A DNA stretch of 64,000 nucleotides from a virus, in IMG/VR virus record IMGVR_UViG_3300024239_000132, positions 1-64,000 of that record; one strand, written 5' to 3'. Positions within the stretch are counted from its first letter, which is position 1. Every line of letters starts with the position of its first letter. Under the pieces are notes generated by a model. The model did not search any database and was not told the origin of the DNA. It saw only the letters and a list, made by a program, of their open reading frames with translations. The position numbers were made by a program, and so were the translations under genes. Below are positions 19,801-63,153 of the stretch, piece after piece.

Positions 19801-22800
19801 CCAGAACAGGAAGCAAAACCTGTTACAGTAGAGCAGGCATACCCGAATCTGTTCGAGACCGAGAAGGTCAAGAACTGGTTTCGTCGTGCCTACAAGTTCC
19901 CCAAGGAAGTTCGCTCTCGCTTGGTTGGCAAGGACAGTCCGCTATCGTTCATCAACGAAGCGGTGCAGTCGAATGATACTTACTCGAAGCTGCTCGAAGG
20001 CAAGTCGACCAAGACCCTGACGGCTGATGTCGCCAAGGCTTATGCTGACTTTCTGGCCGTTGGCAGTGATGTCTTTGTCGAAATGGACAAGAGCCTCGAG
20101 AAGTTCTTGGACAGTGCCCAGAACAAGAAAGAAGGCACCACTTTCCGTGATGCCCTGACCAATGGTCTGAGCCTTGATAGCGGCAATCAGGTCAATGGCT
20201 TTCCTCGCGGTAAAGCCCTGAACATTGTTGAGCAGAACGAAGATGGTTCGTTCTCTTACAATGAGCAGTTGGCTGAGGCTGCAATCCTCGCCGGCCTTCA
20301 GTGGATGGTCACTGCCAAGGATCGCATGCGTGAGCTCGATGCCGAGGAAATTGCCAAGATCACTGGCCTCACCGAAGCCGAAGCAACCGAGCATGTGAAC
20401 TTCTTTAATGATGGTCTGTGGCGTGTTGCTGCAAAGCGTGATCTCGCCAATCTCATCACACGCTACTGGGGTGTGCAAGGCAACCGTGAAGCTCCTGAGG
20501 GCTATGTCCGTGGTATTGCTGAAGGTGTGGCGTCTGAGGTTCTGCGTGGCTTGCAGGCTTCTGGTATGCTCATTGAGGATGGCCGCAAGATCGATGGTAA
20601 AGATCATGTGCTGTTCCGCTTTACGGACGAAGCCCAAGACCACTTTGACAGGATCGCTGCCTTCCCGTCAGCAATCGAAGAGGCAGTGCTCGTCGAACCG
20701 GAGAACGTGAACTACATTGGTTCGGCTCCGGGTGAGGTCGCAACCAATCAACTGCACGGATCTCCTGTTCCTCTGCTGGATCAGCAGAAGCAAGCACTGG
20801 AAGCTGCCCAGAATACACCATTCACGCTCAACCTGAATATGCTGAGCTTTCTTGAGATGCTCGGTGAGGAAGGTGTGTTGGCTCTGTTCGGAAAGGGTGA
20901 TCCCACTGGCCGTGGTCTCCTCAAGAAGACTGCCGAGACGATCAAAGGCTACAACCAGACAGTGCTGTCCGGCTATAAGCACCTGACCAATCTTGTCCGT
21001 GAGATGGACAACGTGGCCGACACTACCGGAACCAAGGTAGAAGAGCTGCCTGTGTTCTTCCGTTACGGTATCTCGTCGGTTGGCCGTATGCAGATGCAGG
21101 GCCGTGCTTCGCCCCAGGCAAGCAAGCTGGTTCGTGAGGTTCTGCTGCCTACGTGGAGCACCTTGGATCTGAGCCAGGTTGGTTCGGAACAGCATAATGC
21201 TTTCCTGCTGGCTGTGGGCCAACACATTGGGGTCAAGGTTCACAAGCTGAAGCCTGGCCAGGCCATCGAAAAGACCATGGATGAGCTCGGCACTAAGTAT
21301 GCTGGCATCGTCGAAATGATGTCGCAGTGGCTTGCTACCGAAGGCGCCGAAACTTGGGGTCAGGCAGAGATCGACCGGATCAAGTCGGTCTTGGGGAACA
21401 AGGTCGCTCCCGGTGCCGTGCATGCTTTAATGGAGTATGCCCGTTACCTCAACGACCTCGATGGTCGTAAGGCTCTCCGCACTGGCCTGTATCTTGAAGC
21501 TGACGGTGTGACCGATGGTCCAGTCAATGCCCTGATGAATCTGGTGGCTGGCAAGTTCACACCAGGGTGGCTGGATCTCATGAACCGTGGTGGCATGTAC
21601 CTTGGATCTAATCCGGTATCTCTTGCCGATTATGTCACCCGGTCAAAGGACAGCTCTGAGGATCTGTACCAGAAGACCACCAACTTCCTCTACGAGCACC
21701 TGTCTTCGTTGTGGGACAAGCTCTCGTCGAGCTCGCGTGCAAGCGAGATGAGCAACATGATGGGTGATCTGTTCATCGATCTGCTGCCTGATGTTCGGGT
21801 AGAAGATGGTCAGGTCAAGTTCGAGCGCGGCATTGCCAAGAATCCCCTGACCGTGACGGTATATGGTTCTGGTGTCCGCGGTATTGCATCGAAGCTGACC
21901 GCTGGTCTGTTGGAAGAGCTCTACGATAGGCTGTCCACCGGTGAGCAGCTGCTGCCTCAGACAGAGCGTGCTCTGCGTGTTTTGACCACTACCAAGCTGA
22001 CACGCAAGTTCGGCAAGTACAATGCTGTCCGGGTTGAAGGGATCAATCTCAACACCGGTTCTGGTGTCGACTTCGAGCTGACCAAGGACATGATCAAGAT
22101 CCTTGAAGATAACGTGATGCAGCTGTTTGCTCGGCCGCTGACCGGAGCTGTTCGAGAGATCATGGATGACGCTCTTGAGACTGCCACCACGCTACGGATG
22201 GCAACTCAGGCTCAGTCTATTTTCTTCAAGTATGCCTACCGTCAGGCCATCGCTGATGCGATTGCCAACAAGGACGGATCAGATGGCACTCTTGGTTCGG
22301 ACTTCCTGTCCCAGGCTGAACTGGATCAGATATTCAAGGATCTTCAGAAAAAGTTTCCGATGATCAATACCGGTACTCAGATGATCTGGGTAGGTGGCTC
22401 GGCTGAGGCCGATATCGAGCAAGCTGAATTCGGCGGTGCTCTGGATGGCAGTCTGCGTTCGCCGGGCTATACCTATGGTCCAGAGAACTCTGGTGTTTCG
22501 GGTATCCCATTCATTGTCATCTCGACGGGTGATGGTCAGATGATCCTGAATGCACTGACCGGAGAACAAGCGCCTCAAGGCACTCTGCCGGTGTTCGATG
22601 GCATCAACATGAAGCTCGACACGATCAAGTCTGACAGCGAGCAAATCAACAAGGCTGTCTATGATGGCTGGGCCAAGAATCCTGTTCGTGCTGTTCAGCA
22701 GAGCTTTGCCCGGTTCATGGCCAACCTCGATACCAGCAATGTCTCTGATGAGATGAATGCTGAACTTGAGCAGGCTTTCAGGGATGGACCTGATTTCACT

Positions 22801-25800
22801 TACGTCGACCCGGCTTTCCATCTTGGAGAGGTAGCCTATCAACTCGATAAGGCTGCCAATGAGCTAGATGCTCGCAAGGCAGTGTTGGCCAAGGTCAACA
22901 TGTCGGTTGATCACATGGCATCGGCTGCTGCACCGTTCACCAAAAGTGATGGTGTAGGGCTGCCAGCTGATCCGACTGAGGCCGCCAAGGTCCTCAACGA
23001 GATGTATGCTGAGGAACTGGCCAAGGTTACTAAGAAGAAGCCCGAACCAAGGGCAGAAGTGTCCGAAGATATCTCCGCTGCTCTTGGTTCAATCGGTACG
23101 CTCCACTCCAGTGGTGCCAGAATCATTAGCCGGGACGCTATCCGACAAATTGTCGGTGAGCTCAACATCCCTCTGGATCAGCGGGGCCTGTTGCGTTCGT
23201 CGGTCAATGCTCTGGCAACCAAGGGCTGGACAGTGCTCCATGGCACGCCTGAGCAGCTCATCGAGTATGCCCGTGAGAATGGCCTTAAGGTTCCTTACGG
23301 CTTCAACGACAGCAACGGCATGGTCTTGCCAGCAGACAAGGTGATGTTCCTCACCTCTGCCAATAGCGAGACCATGACCCATGAATTCCTGCATGCTGCT
23401 ACCGTGCAGCTGATCCACGCCCACTACTCGGGCAATGGTCAGGTAGCCAAGGCAGTGCCTGATGCTGTTAAGCGTCTCGAACTGCTGATGGCAGACTTCC
23501 TGGCGATCGATCCAAGCACGATTGAAGATCAGGAAACTCGTGCAGAATTTAAATTTGTTAAAGAGCAGATCGACAAGTTCGATGAGAGCTCAATGAGCGA
23601 TGCCAATATCAAAACCGGCAAGCTCTCCGAGTTCATGGCTTGGACCCTTGCGAACCAGAAGCTGTCGGATCTCGCTCGCAAGACCAAGGTCAAGAGCAAA
23701 CTGGCTCTGATTGCTGACAAAGTTCTCGAGACGCTCAAGAAGCTATGGCGCCAGACTGGTCTGGCTCCCACCCCTCGAGATGATATCTACAGCAACGTCC
23801 GTTTCAACACTCTGTTGCTGATGGAGAACAAGCAGAAGTCGGTGCTGGATCCTGCATCGGTCACCAGCATGGCCCAGTTCCAGGCTCGCAACTACGGTGG
23901 CAGTGATCGGCTGATCGAGCTAGAGAAGTCGTTTGCTCGCAAGATGTTGGCTGCGCTTCCTACTGAACCAACACGACGATTCCGTATCGATCAGAAGTAT
24001 GAAGCGATGCACCGCATGGCTGGTCAGGTTCGCAAGACTTTCCAGTCCAATGGCTTTGCCATGAACCAGAAAGAAGCATCGTTCTTCGAGACCTTGGTCA
24101 TGGCTCTGGCCGTCGACAAGTCGCTCAACGCCAATGCTCAGTCTCGGGCTGAAGAAGTCTTCCGTGAGGTTCTGTCGAAGCTCAAGGTCGAAGATTTCAT
24201 GGAAGATCCTGATAGCCAGGATCAGTACGATCGTGATCAAGCGAACCTCAAGTTCAACACCGTGGTGGGCAATGCTTTCGTCGGACGGGATCTGTCTAGC
24301 CGTACCATGCTCATGCCTGCGTTCCTGGCTCTGGCAATGGTACATGAGCCCTTCCGCAATGCCCTTTCCAAGATGGATCTGCCCAAGTTTCAGAAGAGCT
24401 CTGAGGGCACTCTGGATGCATTGCTCAGTAACCTTGGCAATGAAGGTCTCGATCGCCTTGGCCGTACCCTCTCCGGTGAAGGCAAGTCGGATAATGTGCT
24501 CGATGCTGTCGAAGCCCTAACCCGCAAGCTGGCTGAGGTCCAGTCTGAGCGGGAAGCTGTTATCGAGACGCATATCGATGCCGTCGGCAATACGATCGAC
24601 AAGACGAATAACTTCGTGGTCGATCAGATGAATCGCTTGAGCCGTGAAGGGTACGATCGGCTTCAGGATGTTGTTGAAAACTCCGACAACAAGTATGCCC
24701 GGGGTGCAGCTCGTGCAGCAGCTGCCGTGGTGAGCTTCTTCAATGAGGACATCTCCGGCGCCAATGCCGAGTTCGCTCTGAAGCTGTCGGACAAGTCCAC
24801 TGTCTGGAAGCCTTTGCGTGAGCTTCTGGTGGAAGTGATCGGCCGTACTGACGAGAATGCTCCGATCTACGATATGATCAAGGCTGTCCGGTCCTACATC
24901 CAGCAGACCCGTCAGATCTATCGTGAGCGTCTGCCCAAGTTTCTGTCGGAGAAGTTTTCGAGGAAGCTCTCGAAGCAGGAATGGTCTGGCATGTACCATG
25001 TCATGGCCAAGACTGATCTGGCTGCCGTTGCTTCCCTTGGTTCAAAGCGTGTTCTGGATATGCTCCGGGATGCTGGCAAGCTGCGTCAGGAGACTGCTGC
25101 TCTGGAGCGTCAGATTGACAAGCTGGATTCGGTGCATTCGACCAAACTCAAGACTAAAGCCCGAGAGCTGGCTGAATACATGATGCTGCGTAAGGTAAGC
25201 AGCAATTTGCTGACCAATGCTGAAAGTGTGGCCAACCTTTATGGTGAGCTCACGGCTCAGCAGCGCAATAGCCGTGGTGTACCTAAGAAGGCTCTGATCC
25301 AGGCAGTCGATCAGCTGGCTACGCTGTACGCTCTGGATCTTAGCGGAGCCAAGAATCGTCAGGTTGTGGCTGAGCTTGCTGCCAAGGAAACCGGCGGCGT
25401 GGAGTTCATGTTGAATTACCTGAAGGGTCAGCGTCAGAATGAACAGGGCAAGGCTCGTAGTGGCCGGGCACAGGTCAACCACATCAAGGGCTACGTCCCG
25501 ACGGAAATCCGTTCAGGTGCAAGCCTGATTGTCGCTCCGGATTTGCAGCACAACGATCTGGCGGCTCGTGGTTATACCCGGGTTGCTCCTTACAAGGGCT
25601 CGGCTGCCGAGGGTCCTTCTGGTTCGCAGAGCTATTATTTTGCTCCGCTGTCTGCCCGGGCACAGTTCAATCAGGGCATTGCCCAGAACGTTCGCTCGAC
25701 CTTTTCTGGCGTTGATCCGGCATCGGGCTTCAGCATTGAAAATTATGGCCTTGGTCGAATTACGAACCAGGAAGCTGTTCGCAAGATCACTAGCCGCATT

Positions 25801-27234
25801 CGGATGAACCGCGGATCTGAGGCTCTCATACCCATTCGTGACGAGTTCGGTGATGTTGTGGCTTACGAACGCACGCTGGATCCTGCTCAGCTGGCCAAGC
25901 TGGAACGTGAAGAAGATCTGTCCAAAGTTTTGGGTATCTGGCGTGGTAGGCAGCTGGAAGAAGCTTCTGCTGACCAGTTCAATCAGATTCTGGTCGAGCG
26001 TCTTCACGATATGTGGGACAAGCGCTCGGTCGGTGACGAGGAAGCGTTCGTCGACTTGTTCGATCCCAAGTCCCACAAGGATCCGGTGGTAAGTGATGCC
26101 GTGAAGCTGTTCACTCCCCAGATGCGTCGACACATCGAGAACGCTTTTGGTGGTGAAGGCTTCATGGTTCGCAAGAGCATGATCAACGATGTCGTCGGGT
26201 ATCGCTCGGCTTCGATCGGTGATCTGTGGACTGGTGTGACGAGGGTACCGCCTGAGACTGCCAAGGTGGCTGCCAATGTACTGACCGCGGTAATGGGCAA
26301 GGATGCCTACAAGTACCTCGTTACTGGCGAGAAGCTATGGCAGAACTTTGTGTCTGATGCTCGTACTACGATCGTGGTTCGCTCGGTAATCGTTCCTGCC
26401 TCGAACATCATCAGCAACGTCTATCAGCTGGCTTCTCGAGGTGTACCGCTCAAGGATATTCTTCGTGGCATGCCCAAGAAGCTTGCTGAGATTCAGGCAT
26501 ATCACGAGAACCACCAGAAGGAGATCAAGCTGGAAGCAGAGCTCCTCTCGGTGCAGAATGATCCTACCAAGAGCCGCGCTCTGAAAGCTCAGATCCAGTC
26601 CCTCAAAGATGGACACCGGCGCCTGAGCATTTGGCCTCTGATTGCCGCCGGTGAGTTCTCGTCGGTTTCGGAAGCTACCGTGATGCGGGAAGAGTCGACG
26701 TTGTTTGAAGGCAAGGTGACCCAGTACATGGAGAGCCTGGTCGACAAGCTGCCTGACTTGGTTCGCACTGCTGGACGTTATGCGATTATCTCGCGGGATA
26801 CTGCCCTGTTCCAGGGTCTCCAGCGTGCTGTCGAGTACGGGGACTTCCTGGCCAAGGCAGTTCTCTATGATGATCTGACCAAGCGTCAGGGCTTGGATAA
26901 GGACAAGGCTCGAGCCAAGGTTAGTGAAGAGTTCGTGAACTACGATCGTCTGCCTGGCCGTTTCCGCGGTACCTTGGAAAATATGGGTCTGATCTGGTTC
27001 TGGCACTTCAAGCTTCGGGCCATCAAGATTGCCATGTCGACGCTCCGGAACAATCCGTTGCATTTCCTCATGGCAGCTGCTGTCCCGGCTCCTGACTTCT
27101 TCGGATCGGTGGGTCTGCCGGTTACGGATAACGCTCTGGCAGTGGCAGCTGAGGGCAAGCTGAACTATTCCATCGGACCATTGCAGGGCCTTCATGCCCA
27201 TGCACTTAATCCTTGGATGAATCTGTTGGGATAA
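16876..27234 (+). CDS. Giant virion-encapsidated RNA polymerase, N4 gp50 type
   Basis: At 3452 residues this is close to the 3500-residue N4 vRNAP, which is injected with the DNA and transcribes early genes from single-stranded hairpin promoters. The N-terminal 450 residues contain glycine/alanine-rich, membrane-prone stretches. An acidic Pro/Glu/Thr linker at about 885-980 leads into the polymerase core. Candidate T7-family motifs there are motif A around Asp1431 (STLDLSQ), motif B ending TVYGSG with Tyr1663-Gly1664, and motif C around Asp1908 (PVFDGINMK). Further on, HEFLH at 2169-2173 resembles a zinc metallopeptidase site. The C-terminal third is helical and unknown. The gene ends the late operon. 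Confidence 0.93.
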   Translation: MSGYTDFLKRFTVANVGPVPVQQPNADTFYKIAAARQNGTGQSNSDPVEQDLQSLSTSEIIAKYGPVGLTMVQQRAMGDARYTRDRYDPAGSTLTDTAMSVGKGFANSVGGLVNLGVGLVNDDAGAWTAEKLGDFNSWVQSKQSDGLNAHRRANKVTNEISFADNKAIYENERKSEGDFLASLRRIGRDAMSAVGNASSDGTILTDGIADAGGSLLSGGLISKGARVLGSKLVQGLLARGVLSEGAALKAADVGGRVSMPGTIGGMEAGGAYQQTVQQVMAMSHDDLVAGSPEYVKLLQEGWDPEDAQVELATSAGLTAAAIQFPVAAAAGTLVSKFEANPFKGAFSGLGIVKNGANEAIEEAVQSGFGQLAGNVGTRAFADQNQDLTDGVGEQAGLGALYGFGSAAAVQVPGSAASAAIAGTVAAAKGAKVLGNKAVDAFDKRLTSVKEGIDQLNPVSKDNINTAVEQTLTEAPAVAQQVQADVEAGTLTPEQGDAIKQRLDTLQQSIAFDPVEIEDRNLSPAVKSVIGSATNKFDALQKAAQLAGSKQVDVPSRIEAALYINDTLNKFGAQLIGDFTSAIDIVPDDHASLPKLREFEDVLINFQQNPELQQARQAAQQYVERMQAEALSEQAVATPKGQQAVRGVVSVAESNPESVSEDLANLVLEHARMGRVKLTPQQTRVLTNAAVLSKTGNTYKLEAKKRELKPTDIVRAQVLTDEMKATPEAKGEALSLAQHVRGINDAYRASNLELAAQRLKRLSDFAQHFQNKVAALNTAYETGANSDRNAVEFEGLSLKGAWGAKGRAWISPTKVGSIKLAQSVALEAKALADMANGMAQSMPELGIGPVTPVELNPDLVGPSTKVAQRFQNAPEKAPTKLIELEETAKVEPAQAEPSKAQTESVAPKAEVTENVTPSPTKTVEAEPVDKPVDEVSTEPVETSPAVEPVEAPESSDRASDQESTKAETQTEEAKADPEQEAKPVTVEQAYPNLFETEKVKNWFRRAYKFPKEVRSRLVGKDSPLSFINEAVQSNDTYSKLLEGKSTKTLTADVAKAYADFLAVGSDVFVEMDKSLEKFLDSAQNKKEGTTFRDALTNGLSLDSGNQVNGFPRGKALNIVEQNEDGSFSYNEQLAEAAILAGLQWMVTAKDRMRELDAEEIAKITGLTEAEATEHVNFFNDGLWRVAAKRDLANLITRYWGVQGNREAPEGYVRGIAEGVASEVLRGLQASGMLIEDGRKIDGKDHVLFRFTDEAQDHFDRIAAFPSAIEEAVLVEPENVNYIGSAPGEVATNQLHGSPVPLLDQQKQALEAAQNTPFTLNLNMLSFLEMLGEEGVLALFGKGDPTGRGLLKKTAETIKGYNQTVLSGYKHLTNLVREMDNVADTTGTKVEELPVFFRYGISSVGRMQMQGRASPQASKLVREVLLPTWSTLDLSQVGSEQHNAFLLAVGQHIGVKVHKLKPGQAIEKTMDELGTKYAGIVEMMSQWLATEGAETWGQAEIDRIKSVLGNKVAPGAVHALMEYARYLNDLDGRKALRTGLYLEADGVTDGPVNALMNLVAGKFTPGWLDLMNRGGMYLGSNPVSLADYVTRSKDSSEDLYQKTTNFLYEHLSSLWDKLSSSSRASEMSNMMGDLFIDLLPDVRVEDGQVKFERGIAKNPLTVTVYGSGVRGIASKLTAGLLEELYDRLSTGEQLLPQTERALRVLTTTKLTRKFGKYNAVRVEGINLNTGSGVDFELTKDMIKILEDNVMQLFARPLTGAVREIMDDALETATTLRMATQAQSIFFKYAYRQAIADAIANKDGSDGTLGSDFLSQAELDQIFKDLQKKFPMINTGTQMIWVGGSAEADIEQAEFGGALDGSLRSPGYTYGPENSGVSGIPFIVISTGDGQMILNALTGEQAPQGTLPVFDGINMKLDTIKSDSEQINKAVYDGWAKNPVRAVQQSFARFMANLDTSNVSDEMNAELEQAFRDGPDFTYVDPAFHLGEVAYQLDKAANELDARKAVLAKVNMSVDHMASAAAPFTKSDGVGLPADPTEAAKVLNEMYAEELAKVTKKKPEPRAEVSEDISAALGSIGTLHSSGARIISRDAIRQIVGELNIPLDQRGLLRSSVNALATKGWTVLHGTPEQLIEYARENGLKVPYGFNDSNGMVLPADKVMFLTSANSETMTHEFLHAATVQLIHAHYSGNGQVAKAVPDAVKRLELLMADFLAIDPSTIEDQETRAEFKFVKEQIDKFDESSMSDANIKTGKLSEFMAWTLANQKLSDLARKTKVKSKLALIADKVLETLKKLWRQTGLAPTPRDDIYSNVRFNTLLLMENKQKSVLDPASVTSMAQFQARNYGGSDRLIELEKSFARKMLAALPTEPTRRFRIDQKYEAMHRMAGQVRKTFQSNGFAMNQKEASFFETLVMALAVDKSLNANAQSRAEEVFREVLSKLKVEDFMEDPDSQDQYDRDQANLKFNTVVGNAFVGRDLSSRTMLMPAFLALAMVHEPFRNALSKMDLPKFQKSSEGTLDALLSNLGNEGLDRLGRTLSGEGKSDNVLDAVEALTRKLAEVQSEREAVIETHIDAVGNTIDKTNNFVVDQMNRLSREGYDRLQDVVENSDNKYARGAARAAAAVVSFFNEDISGANAEFALKLSDKSTVWKPLRELLVEVIGRTDENAPIYDMIKAVRSYIQQTRQIYRERLPKFLSEKFSRKLSKQEWSGMYHVMAKTDLAAVASLGSKRVLDMLRDAGKLRQETAALERQIDKLDSVHSTKLKTKARELAEYMMLRKVSSNLLTNAESVANLYGELTAQQRNSRGVPKKALIQAVDQLATLYALDLSGAKNRQVVAELAAKETGGVEFMLNYLKGQRQNEQGKARSGRAQVNHIKGYVPTEIRSGASLIVAPDLQHNDLAARGYTRVAPYKGSAAEGPSGSQSYYFAPLSARAQFNQGIAQNVRSTFSGVDPASGFSIENYGLGRITNQEAVRKITSRIRMNRGSEALIPIRDEFGDVVAYERTLDPAQLAKLEREEDLSKVLGIWRGRQLEEASADQFNQILVERLHDMWDKRSVGDEEAFVDLFDPKSHKDPVVSDAVKLFTPQMRRHIENAFGGEGFMVRKSMINDVVGYRSASIGDLWTGVTRVPPETAKVAANVLTAVMGKDAYKYLVTGEKLWQNFVSDARTTIVVRSVIVPASNIISNVYQLASRGVPLKDILRGMPKKLAEIQAYHENHQKEIKLEAELLSVQNDPTKSRALKAQIQSLKDGHRRLSIWPLIAAGEFSSVSEATVMREESTLFEGKVTQYMESLVDKLPDLVRTAGRYAIISRDTALFQGLQRAVEYGDFLAKAVLYDDLTKRQGLDKDKARAKVSEEFVNYDRLPGRFRGTLENMGLIWFWHFKLRAIKIAMSTLRNNPLHFLMAAAVPAPDFFGSVGLPVTDNALAVAAEGKLNYSIGPLQGLHAHALNPWMNLLG

Positions 27235-33039: not shown

Positions 33040-33108
33040 GCTCACCCCCGTGAGATGTTGATGGGAAAGCAGCTGGGAGTATTTCATCCCAGCCACCAAT
33101 GGCTCAGA

Positions 33109-51201: not shown

Positions 51202-51253
51202 GCTGTGTTCCCTTTCTGGTTCGCAGCTAGCGGAGCCGGGTGTAATTGCCAAT

Positions 51254-51272
51254 CCATACAAAGCCCATACAG
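51254..51272 (+). repeat. Left arm-type integrase sites
   Basis: CCATACAAA at 51254-51262 and CCATACAG at 51265-51272 are spaced 11 bases apart in direct orientation. The same word returns on the other side of the core. Confidence 0.6.
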
Positions 51273-51333
51273 TAGCTTTTTAAGATGAGCATTTTATCAC
51301 ATAAATTTAGTATCTTAGTGGAATTCGCCTTGT

Positions 51334-51381
51334 CCCTTCACACGGGTGGGGTCACAGGTTCAATCCCTGTCGCGCCCACCA
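51334..51381 (+). other. attP core identical to a tRNA-Val(CAC) 3' part
   Basis: This segment has the exact layout of a tRNA from the anticodon stem to CCA. CCC (51334-51336), loop TTCACAC with anticodon CAC (51339-51341), GGGTG, variable GGGTC, T arm ACAGG-TTCAATC-CCTGT (51354-51370), acceptor CGCGCCC, A, CCA. Upstream bases GT break the anticodon stem, so it is not a working tRNA. Integrases often recombine in such segments and restore the host tRNA. Host identity is inferred and needs the host genome. Confidence 0.85.
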
Positions 51382-51464
51382 CTTAAACCCCTGAAATTAC
51401 TAGGTTTTAAGTGGCTTGGTTGACCGAACCAAGAAAGCCAAAATACGGCAAAACACGTCAAATT

Positions 51465-51483
51465 TCATACAAATCCATACAAA
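51465..51483 (+). repeat. Right arm-type integrase sites
   Basis: TCATACAAA at 51465-51473 and CCATACAAA at 51475-51483 are direct repeats 10 bases apart. They mirror the left arm sites and are typical of tyrosine-integrase arm binding. Confidence 0.6.
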
Positions 51484-51579
51484 ACGCATGCAGAGCCCAG
51501 ACGGTGCAGCAGATAACTTCAGCACTAGGCGTTGCATGATTCGTTTGGCATAAGCCTCTCACACTTATGAGGAATGCTT

Positions 51580-51900
51580 ATGCGGACGATGATTGTGTTG
51601 GGTCTGAGCCTGGCTTTGGGAGCATGCTCTTCGACAATGACCCAGGAACAGGCCATGGCTCGATACGGTACTACTGATCCTGCTACGATCGCTGCGATTC
51701 AGCAGAGGAATTACAACCAGACCATGAACAATCTGACTGCCATGAACAGCCAGATGCAACAGAACGTAGCCACGGGATGGGTTACCTTGAGCCAAGGGCA
51801 ACAGCCCCCAGCTGTAGGCAATTACCAGTACCAGGGATCCGATGGATCATGGATCTACTGTGTTCGTGTAAGCGCCAGTGTCGTTAACTGCCGCCAATGA
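51580..51900 (+). CDS. Lipoprotein next to attP
   Basis: This is a 106-residue protein. ATG 51580 with GAGGA at good spacing is chosen over ATG 51574. The N-terminus MRTMIVLGLSLALGACSST is a lipoprotein signal with lipobox LGAC. The mature part is Gln/Asn-rich (NYNQTMNNLTAMNSQMQQN) with a beta-rich end containing two cysteines. Its place beside attP, read alone on the plus strand, is typical of genes expressed from a prophage, such as superinfection exclusion or surface change. That role is inference. Confidence 0.7.
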   Translation: MRTMIVLGLSLALGACSSTMTQEQAMARYGTTDPATIAAIQQRNYNQTMNNLTAMNSQMQQNVATGWVTLSQGQQPPAVGNYQYQGSDGSWIYCVRVSASVVNCRQ

Positions 51901-52119
51901 GTTGTGGGCAATCTCAGGATAGAGGGCGTCCGACCAGGGTTTCCCGGAAGCAACCCAACCAGCATAGAAAGCTGGGAGGTCAGCTTCCGGGAGAGATGCT
52001 TCCAAGGCTGCATTCTCATAGGTTCCCGCGGTGAACAGAAGACCTGTCACCTCCAGCTCTGGATGGGCAACAGCAACTTCATCGAAGTCTTCGAGTAGGA
52101 TGCTTTTAAGGGATTGCAT
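51847..52119 (-). CDS. Small protein downstream of integrase, unknown
   Basis: This is a 90-residue protein. ATG 52119 follows GGAG with proper spacing. Its 3' end overlaps the lipoprotein gene by 54 nt in a convergent arrangement. It is acidic (LLEDFDEVAVAHPELEV). It lies 47 nt after the integrase stop on the same strand and may belong to the integration unit. No family recognised. Confidence 0.55.
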   Translation of the reverse strand: MQSLKSILLEDFDEVAVAHPELEVTGLLFTAGTYENAALEASLPEADLPAFYAGWVASGKPWSDALYPEIAHNSLAAVNDTGAYTNTVDP

Positions 52120-52166
52120 GGCAAGGCTCCGTGAAAATTTACACGTTGAGTCTTGCTACCCTCAAG

Positions 52167-53273
52167 TCAAGCCTTCCTCAGTTTGATCTTGGTCTTGGCC
52201 TCGGCTCTAGCAATGCCTGCGAGCTGGGCTTCATGGACCTTGTTGGCGATCTCTTCTGCGTGGGTGTAGGTACGCTTCATCAAATTGACGTCAGCCCACC
52301 CACCAAAGGCAGCAGCTGCCTTCTCGTCGATAGAGTGCCTGACGTTCAGTTCCTGACCGAAGCCATGTCTGCCGGCGGCATGGAACGGGATGAATTCTAT
52401 CTTGGCTTTCTCGATAGCCTTGTTCCAAGCCTTGCGAGGAGAAGATCTTTCGGCATAGCCGAATAGGCGCCGGTTACGATCGGTATGTTCCCAGCCTCTG
52501 GGATAGAGTTCAGGTGGCAGCTCTCTGAGTTCGGCCGCCAGCCATTCAGGGATATCGAGCCAGCGATCTCCCATTCCCTTGGCTCCAGGAATGCACAGCC
52601 TTGATCCGGCAGAATCGAAATGGCTGGGGTGCATTTCCATAGCCTGAGAAATTCGAGCACCGGTAGCGAACATGGTCAGAGCCAGAGCTCTCACTCTTGG
52701 TTCGGCATGCTCGCAGAATTGGAGGATCCATTCCCATGAGCCAGGAGGATAATGCTTTCGGCCAGATGAGCCTCGTCTCTTGTCCTGCCTGGTTCGCTCC
52801 TGACGATCATAGCCCTTGATTTTAATGGGGGCACATTTGCCCAGATCATGGGCATTGTTGATGACAGATCGGACAGGAGTCAGAACCTGACGGGTCCATG
52901 TGACGGTACCAGCATCAGGGTAGATTTCTCGAGCGAGTTCTCTCACCATTTTGGGGGTGATCTCGATCAGAGGCTTTTCACCCCATTCCTCGAGTATCGG
53001 TATAAGATAGCCGGCAGTCTTGGCATTGGCCTCGTACAGCAGACAGGCTTCGGCAAAGGTGAATGCCTTTTCCTCTTCCTTGTCTGCTGTTTCAGGACCA
53101 AGCAGAAAGCGTCGGACTATCCTTGCTTCTTCCTGCCTGCACCACTCCCACGCACCTTGCTCTGATAGAGCTCCAGTGCTTTTCTGGTAGTAGTCTGAGA
53201 TGGGCCGGCCTTCGTGCGTGACTCGACCTTTGGCCCACCATTTGGTGCCTCTGAGGTACGGTTCGAGCGGCAC
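52167..53273 (-). CDS. int: Tyrosine site-specific integrase
   Basis: This is a 368-residue integrase. Catalytic residues are visible: Arg207 in ATGARISQ, His298 and Arg302 in FHAAGRHGFG, Trp326 in FGGWADV, and Tyr336 in RTYTH. The N-terminal part (MPLEPYLRGTKWWAKG) looks like an arm-binding domain. GTG 53273 lies behind AAGGAAGGTGA, which itself is inside the xis-like gene. It should recombine attP (51334-51381) with a tRNA-Val gene. Integrases are not part of the classic N4 gene set. Confidence 0.93.
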   Translation of the reverse strand: MPLEPYLRGTKWWAKGRVTHEGRPISDYYQKSTGALSEQGAWEWCRQEEARIVRRFLLGPETADKEEEKAFTFAEACLLYEANAKTAGYLIPILEEWGEKPLIEITPKMVRELAREIYPDAGTVTWTRQVLTPVRSVINNAHDLGKCAPIKIKGYDRQERTRQDKRRGSSGRKHYPPGSWEWILQFCEHAEPRVRALALTMFATGARISQAMEMHPSHFDSAGSRLCIPGAKGMGDRWLDIPEWLAAELRELPPELYPRGWEHTDRNRRLFGYAERSSPRKAWNKAIEKAKIEFIPFHAAGRHGFGQELNVRHSIDEKAAAAFGGWADVNLMKRTYTHAEEIANKVHEAQLAGIARAEAKTKIKLRKA

Positions 53274-53512
53274 TTCTCACCTTCCTTGAGTATCAGTTCC
53301 ATGTGACCCACGGTGATCAGCATGGTTCGTCCGAGCTTTATCCGAGCACCGAGCTTGTTGGCCTTCTCTCTGAGACTCCGTTCAGAGATGGTAATGCCCT
53401 TCTCGGCCAGCAACTCCACCCATTCGGATGGTTGCTTTCCGTGTTCGATGACATGGGGAACAGACGGGTTCAAGGGAATGAAAGAGCGACCGATGAAGTC
53501 ATGCACAGCCAT
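53117..53512 (-). CDS. Excisionase-like winged-helix protein
   Basis: This is a 131-residue protein starting at ATG 53512. Residues about 29-75 (WVELLAEKGITISERSLREK, then LGARIKLGRTMLITVGHMEL) follow the small winged-helix pattern of excisionases. The C-terminal 50 residues are basic and low in complexity, and overlap the integrase gene by 157 nt in another frame. It would bind attP/attR and steer the integrase to excision. The overlap couples expression of both. The Xis call is by pattern and position. Confidence 0.7.
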   Translation of the reverse strand: MAVHDFIGRSFIPLNPSVPHVIEHGKQPSEWVELLAEKGITISERSLREKANKLGARIKLGRTMLITVGHMELILKEGEKCRSNRTSEAPNGGPKVESRTKAGPSQTTTRKALELYQSKVRGSGAGRKKQG

Positions 53513-53523
53513 GGGTCAGCCTT

Positions 53524-54042
53524 TCACTCAAAGATCGATGCCACCGGCTCGTCAGCTTGGTTGGCGTACTTGCCAGTGTAAGCAGCTGGATGAGCGATCT
53601 GGTGGAATATCACTTGTGCGATTCCCGAACCAGCAGGGACGTGAATGAGTTCCGGCCCATTGAAGGTCAGTTCCAGGGTCAAGTGGCCCGACCATCCCGG
53701 TTCAAGGTTGGTAGTCCTACTGGCGTCGAGACCTACCCTCGCCCAGGTGGATTTGTTGAGCACATGGCCCATCAGGTCATTGGGAAGGTCGAAGCATTCT
53801 AGAGATGATGCCAGAACGAATGAACCGTAGGTTCTCGGACCATCATCTACACGATACATCGGTGGTCGATGCATTTCCCCGCTGAAGTGATACAGTGGGG
53901 GGTAGAATGTGACGCTCTGCTTGATCCGAATATCGTAGCCACATTCCGTCAGGCCATGGCTAACGCCATTATGTTTGACCTTGCGAGCGAGCATGTCCTT
54001 GATCGGAGCTGCCTTGAGCAAGCTGGGTCCGTTGATGACCAT
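53524..54042 (-). CDS. dcd: dCTP deaminase
   Basis: This is a 172-residue enzyme with the trimeric dUTPase/dCTP deaminase fold: GLTECGYDIRIKQS, SFVLASSLECFDLP, MGHVLNKSTWARVGL and NLEPGWSGHLTLELTF with the catalytic Glu region. It deaminates dCTP to dUTP and so feeds dTMP synthesis by ThyX. ATG 54042 overlaps the upstream stop (TAATG). Phage-core codons. Confidence 0.88.
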   Translation of the reverse strand: MVINGPSLLKAAPIKDMLARKVKHNGVSHGLTECGYDIRIKQSVTFYPPLYHFSGEMHRPPMYRVDDGPRTYGSFVLASSLECFDLPNDLMGHVLNKSTWARVGLDASRTTNLEPGWSGHLTLELTFNGPELIHVPAGSGIAQVIFHQIAHPAAYTGKYANQADEPVASIFE

Positions 54043-54209
54043 TAGATCACTCCTGTGAGTACGGACAGCAGCCGGGTATGTTCGAAATCGAGCCTACCCT
54101 GTGCCTTGTTCCGCTCATTTGCATCACGGTGCCCGGCACTTACATGTTCACGGACAGCGTATTCGAAGTCAGCGATCAGCTTGAAAGCTGCACGCTTGGA
54201 AGTGGCCAT
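54042..54209 (-). CDS. 55-residue protein before dcd
   Basis: ATG 54209 overlaps the upstream stop (TGATG) and the stop overlaps the dcd start (TAATG), so it is coupled on both sides. The product is a charged helical peptide (ATSKRAAFKLIADFEYAV, then DFEHTRLLSVLTGVI). The tight fit between two clear genes supports it. Function unknown. Confidence 0.75.
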   Translation of the reverse strand: MATSKRAAFKLIADFEYAVREHVSAGHRDANERNKAQGRLDFEHTRLLSVLTGVI

Positions 54210-54628
54210 CAGCCTCGATCCTCCCGAAGCATCTCACCGATGCGGCAGCCGATAGCGTTGTAGATCCGTTCGATCTCACGCTGGTCTGCATCTTCGATGA
54301 GCCAGTTCTGGATGTACTCGACAGTCAGGATCTTGCTGAGCTGAGGCGTCATCGGAGCAGGCTTGGGATCAGCCCTCACTTCTTCCACTGGTTCAGCCGG
54401 AATGCTGTCCGACAGGTCGACCGCGGTATCCGTGACCTCGATGTTCTCAGGCGCCTGAGGCTGGCTGTTAAGCAGTTCGTCGAGCATCTGCTGGACCCAT
54501 GCCATGAGACCAGACTTGTCGGTCGGGATATCGATCTGGGAATAGTCCTTGTTGACCTTCCCTGCATCAGCCTGGGTACCAAGTATCCTGGTATGGCCCG
54601 CTACATCGACGGCGAGATAGAAAATCAT
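54209..54628 (-). CDS. Early protein of unknown function
   Basis: This is a 139-residue protein with start ATG 54628. The N-terminal part (MIFYLAVDVAGHTRILGTQ) is beta-rich. An acidic Pro/Glu linker occupies about 58-92, and a helical end (VEYIQNWLIEDADQREIERI) follows. No family recognised. It lies downstream of the plus-strand mini unit and may have its own promoter. Confidence 0.55.
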   Translation of the reverse strand: MIFYLAVDVAGHTRILGTQADAGKVNKDYSQIDIPTDKSGLMAWVQQMLDELLNSQPQAPENIEVTDTAVDLSDSIPAEPVEEVRADPKPAPMTPQLSKILTVEYIQNWLIEDADQREIERIYNAIGCRIGEMLREDRG

Positions 54629-54795: not shown

Positions 54796-54821
54796 CCCCC
54801 GGAGTGATCCGGGGGTTTTTT
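54796..54821 (+). terminator. Terminator of the plus-strand mini unit
   Basis: CCCCCGGA (54796-54803), loop GTGA, TCCGGGGG (54808-54815), then six T. It ends exactly at the stop codon of the convergent VWA gene. There is no T run on the minus strand, so it works for the plus strand only. Confidence 0.9.
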
Positions 54822-56014
54822 CATGCGTTGATGCAAATGAGCTGGCCAAACGGAACCTTGGCTTCTCTGCCATTGATGGCGATCCAGATGGTGGGACACT
54901 TGGGTCCCGGCTGCATCGGTGTGACGTACATATCGGAGAAGATGATGGCTGCCGTCGGATTGACATCCATCATGTGCTGACGGATTTCCTTGAAGCAGGT
55001 GCCACCACGACCTTGAACATCGATCCCATCGAAGGGATCATCTTCGGTCAGCTCGACAATCTTCTGAATCTTGGTGTCAAACATGACGATGGTCATCTTC
55101 TCAGGATTGTACTTGGTCTTGATGGCCTTCACTTCGGAGTTCATCCGGTCGGTGACTGGTCCTCTGGTGGAACCAGAAACGTCCCAGTAGAATGCCAGAT
55201 GAGTAAGGCGTTCATCGCTTTCCAGGGAGGGCATGTAGATGTCCGGATACCGACGGTTTGGACGCCGGTAGGTATAGTCATCCGAGCACCTCTCATCGAG
55301 AAAGCGATCGAGCAGCACATCCCAAGCAACCTTAGGGGTAAGGAACTTGTTGATGTGCTCAACAACAGATCCAGGAACAGCGCCAGGCTTGCCGGCCGCT
55401 ACTGCTGTGTGAGCAGCCTGGATCACATTGTTGATGGCCCTCTGGGTATCTTCCATGGACATTTGAGGAGCCATATCCTGCCCATTGGTTCCACCTGTAG
55501 GCATATTCCCTTGTGGACCAGACGATGGATCTCCATCAGCTGAACCAGGACCACGAGGGGCACATGGGGGGTCTGGCAGATCGGCATAGATATCTTCTAC
55601 TGCCCATCCCCGGTACTTTTCGTCCCAAATGAAGTAAGGACTCTCAACGGCATAGCCGTCTTTCTTGAGGTTGTTGTTGATGTCGATATCGCAGGCGATG
55701 TTCCATTTCTTCGGATCCCTGTCGCCCATACGAGCGAAGTGAAGATTGGCGGGATGCCAGATCTCGTGAAGCAGAGTGGATTTCCTGAGCTCAGGGGTGA
55801 GCTCAAGGAAATCATTGGGATTCCACCAGACATGGATGCCGTCAGTCGCAGCTGTCTGCACATCCAATGTCCAGATGAATTCCATACCGCACATCAGGGG
55901 ACCCAGGAATGCTCCATTGTCCCCCAGAAATGCTGCTGTCTTGGCTCGATCGAACTCCTGATTAAGGGAGTCCATATCGAAGCCAGAATCGCTGGAAAGC
56001 GGTCGGAAGCTCAT
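54821..56014 (-). CDS. VWA-domain metallopeptidase-like protein, N4 gp25 type
   Basis: This is a 397-residue protein starting at ATG 56014, fixed by the ATGA overlap with the gene before and AAGGTGGG upstream. The N-terminal half has HEIWH at 83-87 with a following WNIACDIDINNNL, the DUF2201-type putative metallopeptidase pattern. The C-terminal half is a von Willebrand A domain (FYWDVSGSTRG with the DxSxS metal site). It pairs with the AAA+ ATPase upstream, as MoxR/VWA chaperone pairs do. Its role in N4-like phages is not established. Confidence 0.85.
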   Translation of the reverse strand: MSFRPLSSDSGFDMDSLNQEFDRAKTAAFLGDNGAFLGPLMCGMEFIWTLDVQTAATDGIHVWWNPNDFLELTPELRKSTLLHEIWHPANLHFARMGDRDPKKWNIACDIDINNNLKKDGYAVESPYFIWDEKYRGWAVEDIYADLPDPPCAPRGPGSADGDPSSGPQGNMPTGGTNGQDMAPQMSMEDTQRAINNVIQAAHTAVAAGKPGAVPGSVVEHINKFLTPKVAWDVLLDRFLDERCSDDYTYRRPNRRYPDIYMPSLESDERLTHLAFYWDVSGSTRGPVTDRMNSEVKAIKTKYNPEKMTIVMFDTKIQKIVELTEDDPFDGIDVQGRGGTCFKEIRQHMMDVNPTAAIIFSDMYVTPMQPGPKCPTIWIAINGREAKVPFGQLICINA

Positions 56015-56172
56015 CGATCCCACCTTTTGAAAGTAAGCCGGTGTGCCCATTCCCTTCCTAGATCGTAAGCGTAATCCAGATGGGTGTATGGGCACTCTTC
56101 GGTGCGGTTGGGGTCAGCCCAGGTAAAGCCCAAGCGAAACTCGAACATGCCCAGTAGAAAGGCTCGAAGCAT
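56011..56172 (-). CDS. 53-residue protein between AAA+ and VWA genes
   Basis: ATG 56172 follows GGAGG with ideal spacing, and the stop overlaps the VWA start (ATGA). The product begins MLRAFLLGMFEFRLGFTW and ends with YAYDLGREWAHRLTF, a pattern seen in other small phage proteins. Coupling on the downstream side and a strong ribosome site support a real gene. Function unknown. Confidence 0.75.
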   Translation of the reverse strand: MLRAFLLGMFEFRLGFTWADPNRTEECPYTHLDYAYDLGREWAHRLTFKRWDR

Positions 56173-56187: not shown

Positions 56188-57267
56188 TCAGGCAGCGTTC
56201 TTGAGCTGGCGATCCTGAGGATTAAGATACTGCGACAGTGCCACCATTGCCTTGATGAAAGTCGGATGGCTGTGCAGCTTAGCGTTGCCGGCAATCGCAG
56301 TGCGATAGAACAGGATACGGTTCTCGATACCGAAGCGGTCCATGTACTGAGCCAGAGGACCAAAGGTCTTGTCGTCAGCTTCAGTGGCCAGCTTCATCGT
56401 CACTGCCCAACGGGTAGCCGTATCCCCAGGGATGTTGGCTGACATTGGGTCATTGATGATGGCCCGGATATCCGGAAGCGAAGCGTAGACCTTGGTGAAC
56501 TGCACGAAGTCGACAGCTACGCCTGGGCTGATGGTGCCGACATAGAGAGGAGTCTTGGCATCAGTGATCTCCTGATCTTTGATTAAGCGATTCATGAACT
56601 CCCAGGTACGTTGGCAGCAGAACGTATCGTTCTTGTGATCCGGCTTGAAGTCGTTGAGCGAGCTGGGCTTCCAGTTGAGGTAAGCAATGATCCGCGGATC
56701 ATACTTCTGGGGCGTAGCTACGTCTTCGAGCCACTCCTTGAAGTCCGTCCGCATCTTGATGTGAACCACACGGCTCTGGAGTGCAGTGCCGATACGGGTA
56801 GTGATGGCGCCGTCGGTATCATGGTTGCCGGCCATGGTTGGGGCAACGAATTCATGCAGACGGTGCTGGCCTACCATGCGATCGAGAATCAGCTTGTAGG
56901 AAGCTGCCTGGACTGCCTTGGTGGCCGAGTTGGCCTCATCAAGGAATAGCATCCAGCCCTGCTTGTTCTTGGGCAGAGGAATGCCTTCCAGTGGGAAGAG
57001 CTCCTCGAATGGCATGAAGGCAGCCTTACCATCTTCAGTGAAGCGGGGCAGACCATTCATGTCCGTCGGTTCAGAGGTGCTGAGACGATGATCGATCAGC
57101 TGGAGTTCCAGCTTGTCAGCGACCTGACGCATGATCGAGCTCTTGCCCATCCCGGGCGAGCTTTTCACGAAAGGAACCAGACCAGCATAGATACAGTCTT
57201 CGACGAACTGTGCGGTCTGGCGGGGAGTGCATTCGTAAATGGAATCGAGAGTTGCCTGGTTCGACAT
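56188..57267 (-). CDS. MoxR-type AAA+ ATPase, N4 gp24 type
   Basis: This is a 359-residue protein with start ATG 57267 (MSNQATLDSI). Walker A SSPGMGKSS is at 36-44 and Walker B GWMLFLDEANSA further on; the arginine and sensor region follows (TRIGTALQSRVVHIKM). MoxR-family ATPases work with VWA partners to remodel proteins or insert metal. The VWA protein is encoded two genes downstream. In N4 the pair is early and non-virion. Confidence 0.87.
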   Translation of the reverse strand: MSNQATLDSIYECTPRQTAQFVEDCIYAGLVPFVKSSPGMGKSSIMRQVADKLELQLIDHRLSTSEPTDMNGLPRFTEDGKAAFMPFEELFPLEGIPLPKNKQGWMLFLDEANSATKAVQAASYKLILDRMVGQHRLHEFVAPTMAGNHDTDGAITTRIGTALQSRVVHIKMRTDFKEWLEDVATPQKYDPRIIAYLNWKPSSLNDFKPDHKNDTFCCQRTWEFMNRLIKDQEITDAKTPLYVGTISPGVAVDFVQFTKVYASLPDIRAIINDPMSANIPGDTATRWAVTMKLATEADDKTFGPLAQYMDRFGIENRILFYRTAIAGNAKLHSHPTFIKAMVALSQYLNPQDRQLKNAA

Positions 57268-57289
57268 GGGGTATTCCTCTATTGAGAGC

Positions 57290-57736
57290 TTAAAAAGGGA
57301 AGATTGGTTCGATGCTGTCACCTAAAGGAACCGCATCTAAGTTGATCTCTGGAGTCGGAACAGTAAGTAAACAGCTGTCGTCTGCCGAGGTACGACGTTC
57401 CACGTCGCCATCTTCTTCTCCGCAGCGATAGAACTCGTAAGAGAGATCGAATGCCTCTTCAGCCGTTTCTAGGAGCTGGTTCCATGCTCTGACGCAAGTG
57501 TAGTCGTCGTACCACTTCCATCCGGATACTTCTAATTCCAGCATACCGAATACGGTCGGCAGATACTGTTCAGCCTTGGCGTCCCAAGTTTTGGTTTCGA
57601 AGAGATAGCGCTTTAGGGCGCCATCAAACTCCTTGAGACCCATGTCTTCTCCGGAGAGCTGCTTTGAAGCAAGCAGAGCAGTGATCTTGTCATTGTCGCC
57701 ATAAATGATTGAGCGGACGTTTGAGCGGTAGCCCAT
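57290..57736 (-). CDS. Early protein, paralogue A
   Basis: This is a 148-residue protein with start ATG 57736 behind GAGGAAAACC. It is related to the gene just upstream: both open with a (Y/F)R...GLIYG or SIIYG segment followed by D(N/D)xITA(L/A)(L/I)AS(K/W)QL, share an aromatic middle and a Leu-Asp...P end. MGYRSNVRSIIYG openings occur in other phage proteins of unknown role. It lies in the early operon just upstream of the AAA+ gene. Confidence 0.65.
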   Translation of the reverse strand: MGYRSNVRSIIYGDNDKITALLASKQLSGEDMGLKEFDGALKRYLFETKTWDAKAEQYLPTVFGMLELEVSGWKWYDDYTCVRAWNQLLETAEEAFDLSYEFYRCGEEDGDVERRTSADDSCLLTVPTPEINLDAVPLGDSIEPIFPF

Positions 57737-58887: not shown

Positions 58888-60093
58888 TCAGGAAAGTGAG
58901 TAGTTGGACGCCGCAATGTCCGCGGCAAGCGTCGGATCGAGCTTACCAATCTGGACTTTGCGTCCAATCAGCTGGCTGATGATGCTGGAGAGCAGCTCTG
59001 ATTCTGCAATCATCTGGAGCTGGAGATTGTACTGCCGGCGCAGATCGTTGGCGTAGTGGGGCAGACAGCGGAAGCAGTCATGGATGGGCATGACGCTGAA
59101 CGGCTTGTTCGGGAGGCTGTTGAGCAGCTTGCGAATTACCGCGGCATCGACATGACCAAGGTTGTCCTCATTGAGGTGATCCAGGATGCGAGCCGAGAGG
59201 TATCCCGTTTCGAGGTAGTTGGTCCACAAGGTGCAGACCATCTTGTCATCCTTGGTTCGGTTGAATGTGCCACGAGGCCCTGAGTGAATGGCATCAGCGA
59301 TCATGTCGACCTTACGCTGGTCATAAGAGCAGCGACGGACGATCTCACGCACGATCATGCCATCAATGGAGTGAACCATGTTGGCGCCGAGAGCCCTGCC
59401 CTCTGGCATGGGCTGGTTCACCTTGTAGCTGATCTCGATCGGCTGCTCGTCGAAGTGAATCGTCTCATAGACGGTATCCATGACCTTGGTTCGAACGTGG
59501 AAATTGTCCGGGAGAACCCAGTCATGGCTAAGTGTTGTGGGATTCCACAGATCTCGCATGGTCTCATTGAGTTCCCAGGCAGCTGGGCAGAATTCCTTGA
59601 GGATATCGTAGAAGAGCTCGAGGAGCTCACCTTCTCCGAAGATCTTCTTGGGCATGGCAGTGGAGCTATAGAGCGAGGTCATAATCGCTTGCTTGGTATC
59701 GCTCCGCTTGATCTTGGCATTGCCACCTGAGCGCTGGAGCATCAGGTCATAGATATTGGTGTAAGCGTCCTCACGGTGGCCAGTGTCGACGACATTGCAG
59801 AGCTCGGCAGCTGAGCGATCACCGGTAAGGCAAGCAAGAATCTGAAGCCCACTGGAAGTGGCATCGAGACCCACGCAGTAGCCAATAGGCAGACCCTTCT
59901 GAACCTCCCTGTACGCCTTTACAGCGGCGAAATAGAGGGCAGGTTCTTCTGCCTGGGTCATCAGGCTCTCGAGGTGAGGCTCATTGGCCTCGAACCAGGC
60001 AAGGCGATCGTCCCAGTCGAGCTTGTCGTGGCCCATGTGGTTGGCGATATCGATCTGAAGGTACTGCTTTCCGGTGAAGAGTTGCATGGTCAT
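58888..60093 (-). CDS. RNAP2, catalytic subunit of split T7-like RNA polymerase
   Basis: This is a 401-residue protein, near the 404 of N4 RNAP2. ATG 60093 (MTMQLFTGKQYLQ) follows GAAGGAAACC. It holds the C-terminal polymerase motifs: motif A GLDATSSGLQ with Asp77, motif B KRSDTKQAIMTSLY with Lys134 and Tyr142, and motif C PIHDCF with His338-Asp339. It must combine with RNAP1, encoded upstream, to give a T7-type enzyme for the middle genes. A terminator follows. Confidence 0.93.
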   Translation of the reverse strand: MTMQLFTGKQYLQIDIANHMGHDKLDWDDRLAWFEANEPHLESLMTQAEEPALYFAAVKAYREVQKGLPIGYCVGLDATSSGLQILACLTGDRSAAELCNVVDTGHREDAYTNIYDLMLQRSGGNAKIKRSDTKQAIMTSLYSSTAMPKKIFGEGELLELFYDILKEFCPAAWELNETMRDLWNPTTLSHDWVLPDNFHVRTKVMDTVYETIHFDEQPIEISYKVNQPMPEGRALGANMVHSIDGMIVREIVRRCSYDQRKVDMIADAIHSGPRGTFNRTKDDKMVCTLWTNYLETGYLSARILDHLNEDNLGHVDAAVIRKLLNSLPNKPFSVMPIHDCFRCLPHYANDLRRQYNLQLQMIAESELLSSIISQLIGRKVQIGKLDPTLAADIAASNYSLS

Positions 60094-60106
60094 GGTTCGG
60101 TTTCCT

Positions 60107-60298
60107 TCAGTGTTCGACTTCAGCAGATATAAAAGAGGTGACGCCAGCTGGCGGCTGTATTCCGAGACCTCGAATGAGATGGTATCCGCTGCCCTGATGC
60201 TTGAGCACGATGCCGTACCTGTCCCAGACACCTGGGAAGACGACACGCTGACCCGGTTGGGCAGTGGTGCGGAGCTGGTAGAGAAATCCGTGAGCCAA
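60107..60298 (-). CDS. 63-residue protein before RNAP2, TTG start
   Basis: TTG 60298 has AGGAG at good spacing, and the frame ends 14 bases before the RNAP2 start. The product (QRVVFPGVWDRYGIVLKHQG) is beta-rich and looks like a small SH3/KOW-like barrel. A terminator lies just upstream (60319-60352), so this gene and RNAP2 may have their own promoter. Moderate confidence because of the rare start codon. Confidence 0.55.
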   Translation of the reverse strand: MAHGFLYQLRTTAQPGQRVVFPGVWDRYGIVLKHQGSGYHLIRGLGIQPPAGVTSFISAEVEH

Positions 60299-61359: not shown

Positions 61360-62205
61360 TTATTCCACTAGCTCCTTGTCAGCAAGCTGGACTACGGCCT
61401 TGTTCCAGCTCGTGCCCATGTACGAAATGAAATAGCCCTGACAGTACGTCCGACCTCGCTTGTCGTACTTGTGGGTGAGGTAGAAGCTGTTGCCTAAGGA
61501 CAGGATCTTGCCGATCACTTCCTTGGCTCCGCGGTCGTATTTTTCAAACGCACGGACACGCTTTTGGAAGTCGGTCTTGGACTCGCCTTCCTTGGGCTTG
61601 TCGAGGTTACGCCACTCATTGCGAACCAGGAATGCCGTACCCTCGTCGATCGAGAAGCGGATCTTGTTCATGCGATTGATGTGGTCGAGGCACACATCGT
61701 CATCATGATGGTTCTGCTTCAGGATGATCGAGCCACGGGCAGTGAGGTAGCCGGTCTCACGGTTGTTGGTTACCGGCTCTGGTTCGATGACCATAGGCAG
61801 TGGGAACTGGTACTTGGCAATCTCTTCGTGGACTTCAGGCCCTACGTCGAACTCCATGATGAACTTGCCGGTGATCTCGTCATAAGTGACCAGATCAACC
61901 TCGGCACACTTGTAGAGCATGTCAGCAGCCAGCTGGCTGGCATTGTGAAGAGGCTCGAAGTGCTTACGCAGGATGCCCACCAGAGTGCTGACATCAGCAC
62001 GCTTGTGCAGGACCATCTGAACCAGAAGTTCGATACCGAACTCTGGCAGGATCGAGTGCTCCTTCATGTGGGCTACGAAATCTTCCTCCTCGCACTCAAG
62101 GAATTCCTTGCGAATGCGTGGGAGGAGCTGGTTCTTCGAATAAAGGTGCTCCAGCTCCATCTGGAGATCCAGACGAGCAGCGTCGATGTCGGTTCTAGCG
62201 AGCAA
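61360..62205 (-). CDS. RNAP1, N-terminal subunit of split T7-like RNA polymerase
   Basis: This is a 281-residue protein, near the 269 of N4 RNAP1. It ends with the T7-polymerase region before motif A: THKYDKRGRTYCQGYFIS with Asp248, Arg252 and Tyr254. The catalytic motifs lie in RNAP2, so the enzyme is split at the same place as in N4. The two genes are separated here by about 1.3 kb and four to five small genes. ATG 62205 overlaps the upstream gene by 11 nt. Confidence 0.92.
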   Translation of the reverse strand: MLARTDIDAARLDLQMELEHLYSKNQLLPRIRKEFLECEEEDFVAHMKEHSILPEFGIELLVQMVLHKRADVSTLVGILRKHFEPLHNASQLAADMLYKCAEVDLVTYDEITGKFIMEFDVGPEVHEEIAKYQFPLPMVIEPEPVTNNRETGYLTARGSIILKQNHHDDDVCLDHINRMNKIRFSIDEGTAFLVRNEWRNLDKPKEGESKTDFQKRVRAFEKYDRGAKEVIGKILSLGNSFYLTHKYDKRGRTYCQGYFISYMGTSWNKAVVQLADKELVE

Positions 62206-63106: not shown

Positions 63107-63134
63107 GATCTTATCCTTGGTTCAGAGCCCAAGA

Positions 63135-63147: not shown

Positions 63148-63153
63148 AGGGCA

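Follow-up and report, generated by a model that had tools for sequence, protein, structure and literature searches.

Phage N4 and the classic Schitoviridae carry a giant virion RNA polymerase (vRNAP), the RNA polymerase subunits RNAP1 and RNAP2, and a DNA polymerase, primase and ssb, all of which are shared by the phage described here. Transcription of the early genes of N4 depends on the injected polymerase, and that of the middle genes on RNAP1 and RNAP2 made in the early phase; the late genes, among them the one for the polymerase itself, require a middle product together with the host polymerase. T7-type polymerase is made after infection; the N4-type enzyme enters the cell along with the DNA. 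tRNA-matching attP sites are known from integrase-bearing T7-like cyanophages, which we take as a lead only. The T7-like phage LUZ100 and the marine T7-like viruses with integrases that PMC10654107 cites resemble our phage: they belong to a lineage regarded as strictly lytic, encode their own RNA polymerase, and have acquired temperate features.

Temperate N4-type phages are themselves already known, from recent computational work: a 2023 mSystems survey lists lysogeny hallmark genes, integrases among them, in 54 N4-like genomes and describes 40 integrated N4-like proviral regions, mostly in Moraxella (PMC10654107). The viruses in that survey share with our phage the combination of N4-type core genes and lysogeny hallmark genes. 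The portions of the survey used for this comparison mention no attP sites, arm sites or tRNA targets; what is worked out here, for a phage with Sphingomonadales as its predicted hosts, is the integration target, the att core, the arm sites, the donor of the cassette, and selection between sister strains. In the open-access texts searched we found no report of how the attP is built, which tRNA it targets, where the cassette came from, or the repeated slot use described below, and the attP anatomy, donor and slot appear to be new.

An N4-type genome and its integration module

The window analyzed here is a 64,000-nucleotide stretch, bases 1-64000 of the 73,249-bp IMG/VR record IMGVR_UViG_3300024239_000132. 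An overlap of ~131 bp between the ends of the record, containing a single G-run indel, lets it close as a circle of ~73.1 kb; this overlap demonstrates closure as a circle only, and fits direct terminal repeats without demonstrating them. The phage is N4-type (Schitoviridae), and the window covers most of its genome. Its vRNAP (16876..27234, plus strand) is 3452 amino acids long, in keeping with the ~3,500-residue vRNAP of the family, and matches phrog_2206 over residues 22-3451 with 2610 bits; the C-terminal part of the protein has matches in 462 phage records, with a best identity of 49%. Also present are the RNAP2 (58888..60246, minus strand; phrog_2051, 1.3e-157) and RNAP1 (61360..62205, minus strand; phrog_2166, 1.5e-101) subunits, and a PHROG-identified N4-type DNA polymerase (34959-37688), primase (30847-33099) and ssb (28716-29555). 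The large terminase gene terL (record positions 70,325-72,904, outside the window) is homologous to terL of other N4-type records. Next to the integration module lie, all on the minus strand, a dCTP deaminase (53524..54042; Pfam and PHROG) that is the first phage gene beyond the module, a conserved gene for a 139-residue product (54209..54628), an N4-type VWA/metallopeptidase-like (DUF2201) protein (54821..56095; Pfam and PHROG), and an N4-type ATPase (56188..57321; PHROG). A preliminary description of this DNA had placed the module between N4-type genes on both sides, and the polymerases, primase and ssb bear this out.

The terL gene contains an in-frame, intein-like insert of ~320 residues that other N4-type terL genes lack, their flanking parts being contiguous. 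About five small ORFs of 60-81 residues in the early region (62195-63879) resemble diverged paralogues. An 853-residue ORF (43893-46454), on the strand opposite its neighbors and without a PHROG family, has an N-terminal (PT)n stretch and could encode a tail spike or adhesin. The block at 46500-51250 is richer in GC (58.9% versus 54.5%); for most of its small ORFs no family is known, and several have no homologue in the sister phage introduced below.

The module itself begins at the left arm of attP (51255), which corrects the earlier start at 51254. Its integrase gene (int; 52167..53273, minus strand) encodes a 368-residue tyrosine integrase matching Pfam PF00589 (E = 4.9e-11) and the PHROG integrase family (2.4e-22). 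Residues R207, K232, H298, R302, W326 and Y336, which supply the catalytic R, K, H, R, H/W and Y of phage tyrosine integrases, are all present and are invariant in a 12-sequence alignment with relatives. The integrase box reads H-x-x-x-R rather than the canonical H-x-x-R, placing the histidine one residue farther from the arginine; this form is common to the whole family, which is evidently active. A 131-residue helix-turn-helix (HTH)/Xis-like protein is encoded immediately upstream (53117..53512, minus strand), and its gene overlaps the start of int by 157 bp in a different frame. Its Pfam HTH match is marginal (23 bits), but in nearly all relatives a homologue with 40-54% identity lies upstream of int and overlaps it in the same way. 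The earlier reading of these two genes, as a tyrosine integrase with R-H-R-(W)-Y residues and an Xis-like protein, thus stands, in the first case on the family matches and invariant residues and in the second on co-conservation with int at the same overlap. The overlap (53117-53273) is maintained in relatives at 56-64% identity.

Between attP and int we add two ORFs to the module as first described. One, on the strand opposite int (51574..51900, plus strand), encodes a 108-residue lipoprotein-like product with an LGAC lipobox; it has no match in phage records, is conserved in the sister phage (pN/pS ~0.07), and is possibly cargo expressed during lysogeny, making it a candidate lysogenic-conversion or exclusion gene. 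The other (51847..52119, minus strand) encodes 90 residues, belongs to no Pfam family, and is found in the sister phage only, at 92% identity. Scans of the module for sigma-70 promoters and terminators gave no more hits than in shuffled sequence.

The attP site and its relatives in Sphingomonadales

The attP core (51333..51384, plus strand) consists of the 3′ end of a tRNA-Val(CAC) gene plus 3 bp. This 52-bp core agrees at all 52 positions with the distal att copy of three Novosphingobium assemblies; four others match it at 49/49. We took the identity of the tRNA from ARAGORN predictions on the relatives; the tRNA half in the window is called by neither ARAGORN nor Rfam, as expected of a gene fragment. 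Flanking the core are two pairs of CATACA repeats, one on the left (51255..51271, plus strand; copies at 51255-51260 and 51266-51271, 11-bp spacing, −78/−67 from the core start) and one on the int side (51466..51481, plus strand; copies at 51466 and 51476, 10-bp spacing, +133/+143). The motif was picked after inspecting the sequence, and its offsets in relatives serve as an independent check: integrated relatives have CGTACA pairs at −79/−68 and about +151/+162 from the core start. No other C[AG]TACA pair with 10-11 bp spacing occurs on either strand elsewhere in the 73-kb genome. The paired repeats around the core have the layout of arm-type integrase sites, and we regard them as the strongest single evidence for a functional attP.

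Relatives of the integrase, at 56-64% identity, were found on 15 GTDB contigs of Sphingomonadales type and four viral contigs, aside from the sister phage. A tRNA-Val(CAC) gene that faces int just past its 3′ end, ~130 bp away, was identified by ARAGORN at 13 of these 15 bacterial loci, and several contigs have a second copy of the core 18-52 kb off, as would be expected of attL and attR in integrated elements. The locus combines a tRNA 3′-end core, arm sites on both sides, and related integrases integrated at that target, as is typical of tRNA-targeting modules. The tRNA-derived attP of the preliminary description is confirmed, its core being the 3′ part of tRNA-Val(CAC); the concern that host genomes might lack this core in a tRNA-Val gene does not apply, since Novosphingobium genomes carry it there.

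These cassettes, in Erythrobacter rubeus KMU-140, Novosphingobium, Blastomonas, Qipengyuania, IMG/VR 3300035015_000016 and others, share with our phage the homologous int, the overlapping HTH gene, the tRNA-Val(CAC) core and the paired arm sites. Unlike our phage, none of the elements bearing them encodes a vRNAP, and those checked hold other replication, tail or repressor genes. The explanation we consider likely is that a near-complete N4-type genome captured an int + HTH/Xis cassette together with its attP, that ordinary temperate phages of Sphingomonadales were the donor, and that the phage integrates into tRNA-Val(CAC). The identity of the tRNA and the relatives of the cassette suggest Sphingomonadales, such as Novosphingobium and Erythrobacter-like bacteria, as the predicted hosts.

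In the proposed pathway, the linear virion DNA would circularize after injection through its putative terminal repeats. The integrase, bound to the core and to both pairs of arm sites, would recombine attP with the 3′ end of the host tRNA-Val(CAC) gene. Since the tRNA 3′ end is part of attP, integration would leave that gene restored. The overlapping HTH protein would probably act as a directionality factor, a regulator, or both. Recombination activity, the role of the HTH gene in excision, and lysogeny of this particular phage are the parts of this explanation that we infer.

A search with a vRNAP profile found no N4-type prophage in 401 Sphingomonadaceae, 196 Novosphingobium, 401 Sphingomonadales and 385 Alphaproteobacteria genomes, a weak negative since these samples overlap and hold one genome per species; the same search recovered the sister phage at E = 0. 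Weak vRNAP matches in bacterial genomes were rejected as N4-type because they were short and scored 34 bits at most. A check proposed in the preliminary description, for prophages with the 3452-residue polymerase, thus yielded no lysogen of this phage in the genomes sampled. The record itself is the closed, attP-intact form, and represents a non-integrated, replicating or virion state only. The earlier claim of a temperate N4-type phage is accordingly upheld for the complete-looking module and its tRNA-Val attP, and is not matched by a lysogen in the genomes sampled.

Retention in a sister phage and integrases of other N4-type records

A sister phage is represented by the 39.7-kb contig 3300034072_000840, which stops within vRNAP and is about 94% identical around attP; it was the sole relative recovered through the VWA gene. 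Gene order is unchanged, running from RNAP2 through VWA, dCTP deaminase, the HTH gene, int and attP to thymidylate synthase. Both int and xis are retained, and the core and all four arm repeats are identical base for base. Between the two strains, int shows a pS of 0.119 and a pN of 0.0053 (pN/pS ~0.045), values similar to those of RNAP2 (pS 0.133, pN 0.011). The integrase is under purifying selection in this pair, and its retention shows that the module is not the stray insertion in one isolate that the preliminary description had allowed for.

We next consider whether the cassette could be a recent hitch-hiker in a strictly virulent phage, with no role in the life cycle and destined for loss. 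The failure to find a lysogen in the genomes sampled would fit this idea, as would the abundance of homologous cassettes in other elements of the host group and the two extra small ORFs between attP and int, which the relatives lack. Purifying selection on the cassette in the sister phage, with all att repeats kept, speaks against it, as do the intact attP arms and the finding that in different N4-type phages distinct integrases occupy this slot or one close to it. We judge this alternative improbable.

The evidence on slots comes from a scan of 50 N4-type IMG/VR records. PF00589 was found in five, namely the sister phage and four others (G1014, G1015, G1017 and G1021), and was absent from the remaining 45, as in classic Schitoviridae. 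The earlier statement that classic N4-like phages lack an integration set agrees with these 45 records, and the novelty it implied is reduced by the 2023 survey (PMC10654107). The four other integrases are distant from that of our phage (best 28% over 144 residues) and from one another, with G1014 and G1021 27% identical and other pairs lower. In a check also put forward earlier, for Schitoviridae integrases beside tRNA 3′ ends, at least three of these four proved to have tRNA sequence next to int. In G1021, int occupies the same slot as in our phage, between thymidylate synthase and a homologue of the N-terminal part of the 54209-54628 product, and a tRNA-Met(CAT)-type 3′ end lies ~80 bp past it. 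In G1017, G1015 and G1014, int is located between RNAP2 and the ATPase/VWA genes. The G1017 int faces the 3′ end of a CAT-anticodon tRNA, assigned by ARAGORN to tRNA-Met, again ~80 bp past the gene. G1014 is likewise opened at int, and its end coincides exactly with the stop codon of int, as would be the case for a provirus trimmed to gene boundaries; tRNA sequence is absent from this record, and phage records contain no near-match to it. Together, these arrangements suggest that different integrases have entered the region around the RNAP2/ATPase/VWA genes on several occasions.

Record G1015 (IMG/VR 3300037589_000163) opens (1-2474) with a host-like gene, followed by an entire tRNA-Ser(GCT) gene and int, continues through RNAP2, RNAP1 and an internal terL, and ends at the ATPase. 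It looks like a provirus end, in which a circularized N4-type genome was opened at attP next to apparent host DNA. The host origin of the first gene is assigned from context alone, as the gene has no Pfam hit, and no homologue of it was found beside tRNA-Ser(GCT) in eight loci compared. The right end contains no second att copy, the record stopping within phage genes.

This arrangement bears on a further alternative, in which the integrase would serve a non-lysogenic task such as resolving genome multimers or integrating briefly during infection (pseudolysogeny). No repressor was recognized among the scanned ORFs of our phage, the form that assembled has an intact attP, and pseudolysogeny in N4-like phages is cited in PMC10654107. 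A core made of a host tRNA 3′ end is, however, the signature of chromosomal integration, and in G1015 an N4-type genome adjoins a host-like gene and an entire tRNA gene; we consider a purely non-lysogenic role still less probable than a hitch-hiking cassette. Finally, an assembly chimera joining a prophage fragment to an N4-type contig, which could be suspected from the occurrence of the cassette's relatives in elements without N4-type polymerase, is highly improbable and already largely refuted by the second contig, 3300034072_000840, in which the genes from RNAP2 via int to thymidylate synthase are arranged identically and vRNAP is present as well, and by the GC and GC3 of int, which are like those of the rest of the genome. 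Capture of an intact-looking integration cassette by an N4-type phage remains our preferred explanation, and phages of this kind can probably lie dormant.

Prophage silence and the life cycle of N4-type phages

The preliminary description asked how early genes could stay silent in a lysogen when their promoters need an injected enzyme, and the question is a legitimate one. A prophage would start without injected polymerase, so early genes would stay off, and with them the middle genes, the late genes, and the polymerase gene itself. This default-off loop is the simplest idea for how such a prophage is kept silent, and we offer it as a tentative hypothesis that may well be wrong. We think it unlikely that silence arises by architecture without any dedicated repressor, such that an integrase cassette alone makes an N4-type phage temperate. 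A profile scan, which covered part of the small ORFs, revealed no recognizable repressor among the ORFs of this phage. Small HTH proteins are encoded in three of the five integrase-bearing N4-type records but in just 1 of the remaining 45 (Fisher p ~0.002, with relatedness ignored); they may be repressors, or candidate lysogeny regulators, and their enrichment counts against purely passive silencing. These proteins, which have no homologue in our phage, lie at L146 6667-6909, in the last 190 bp of L145, at L143 4325-4543 and in L166, sometimes in two copies. Of 40 hairpins with a 3-nt loop in the whole genome, considered as possible vRNAP promoters, 7 fall in the early region at 64-68.7 kb, and they share no motif.

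Schitoviridae are treated as strictly lytic, also in choosing phages for therapy. Now that attP and the target gene are defined and hosts can be predicted, lysogeny of an N4-type phage becomes testable by junction PCR, and the dormancy of a phage that injects its own polymerase becomes an experimental question. If silence does follow from the architecture of the transcription program, this would explain the repeated gain of different integrases by N4-type phages.
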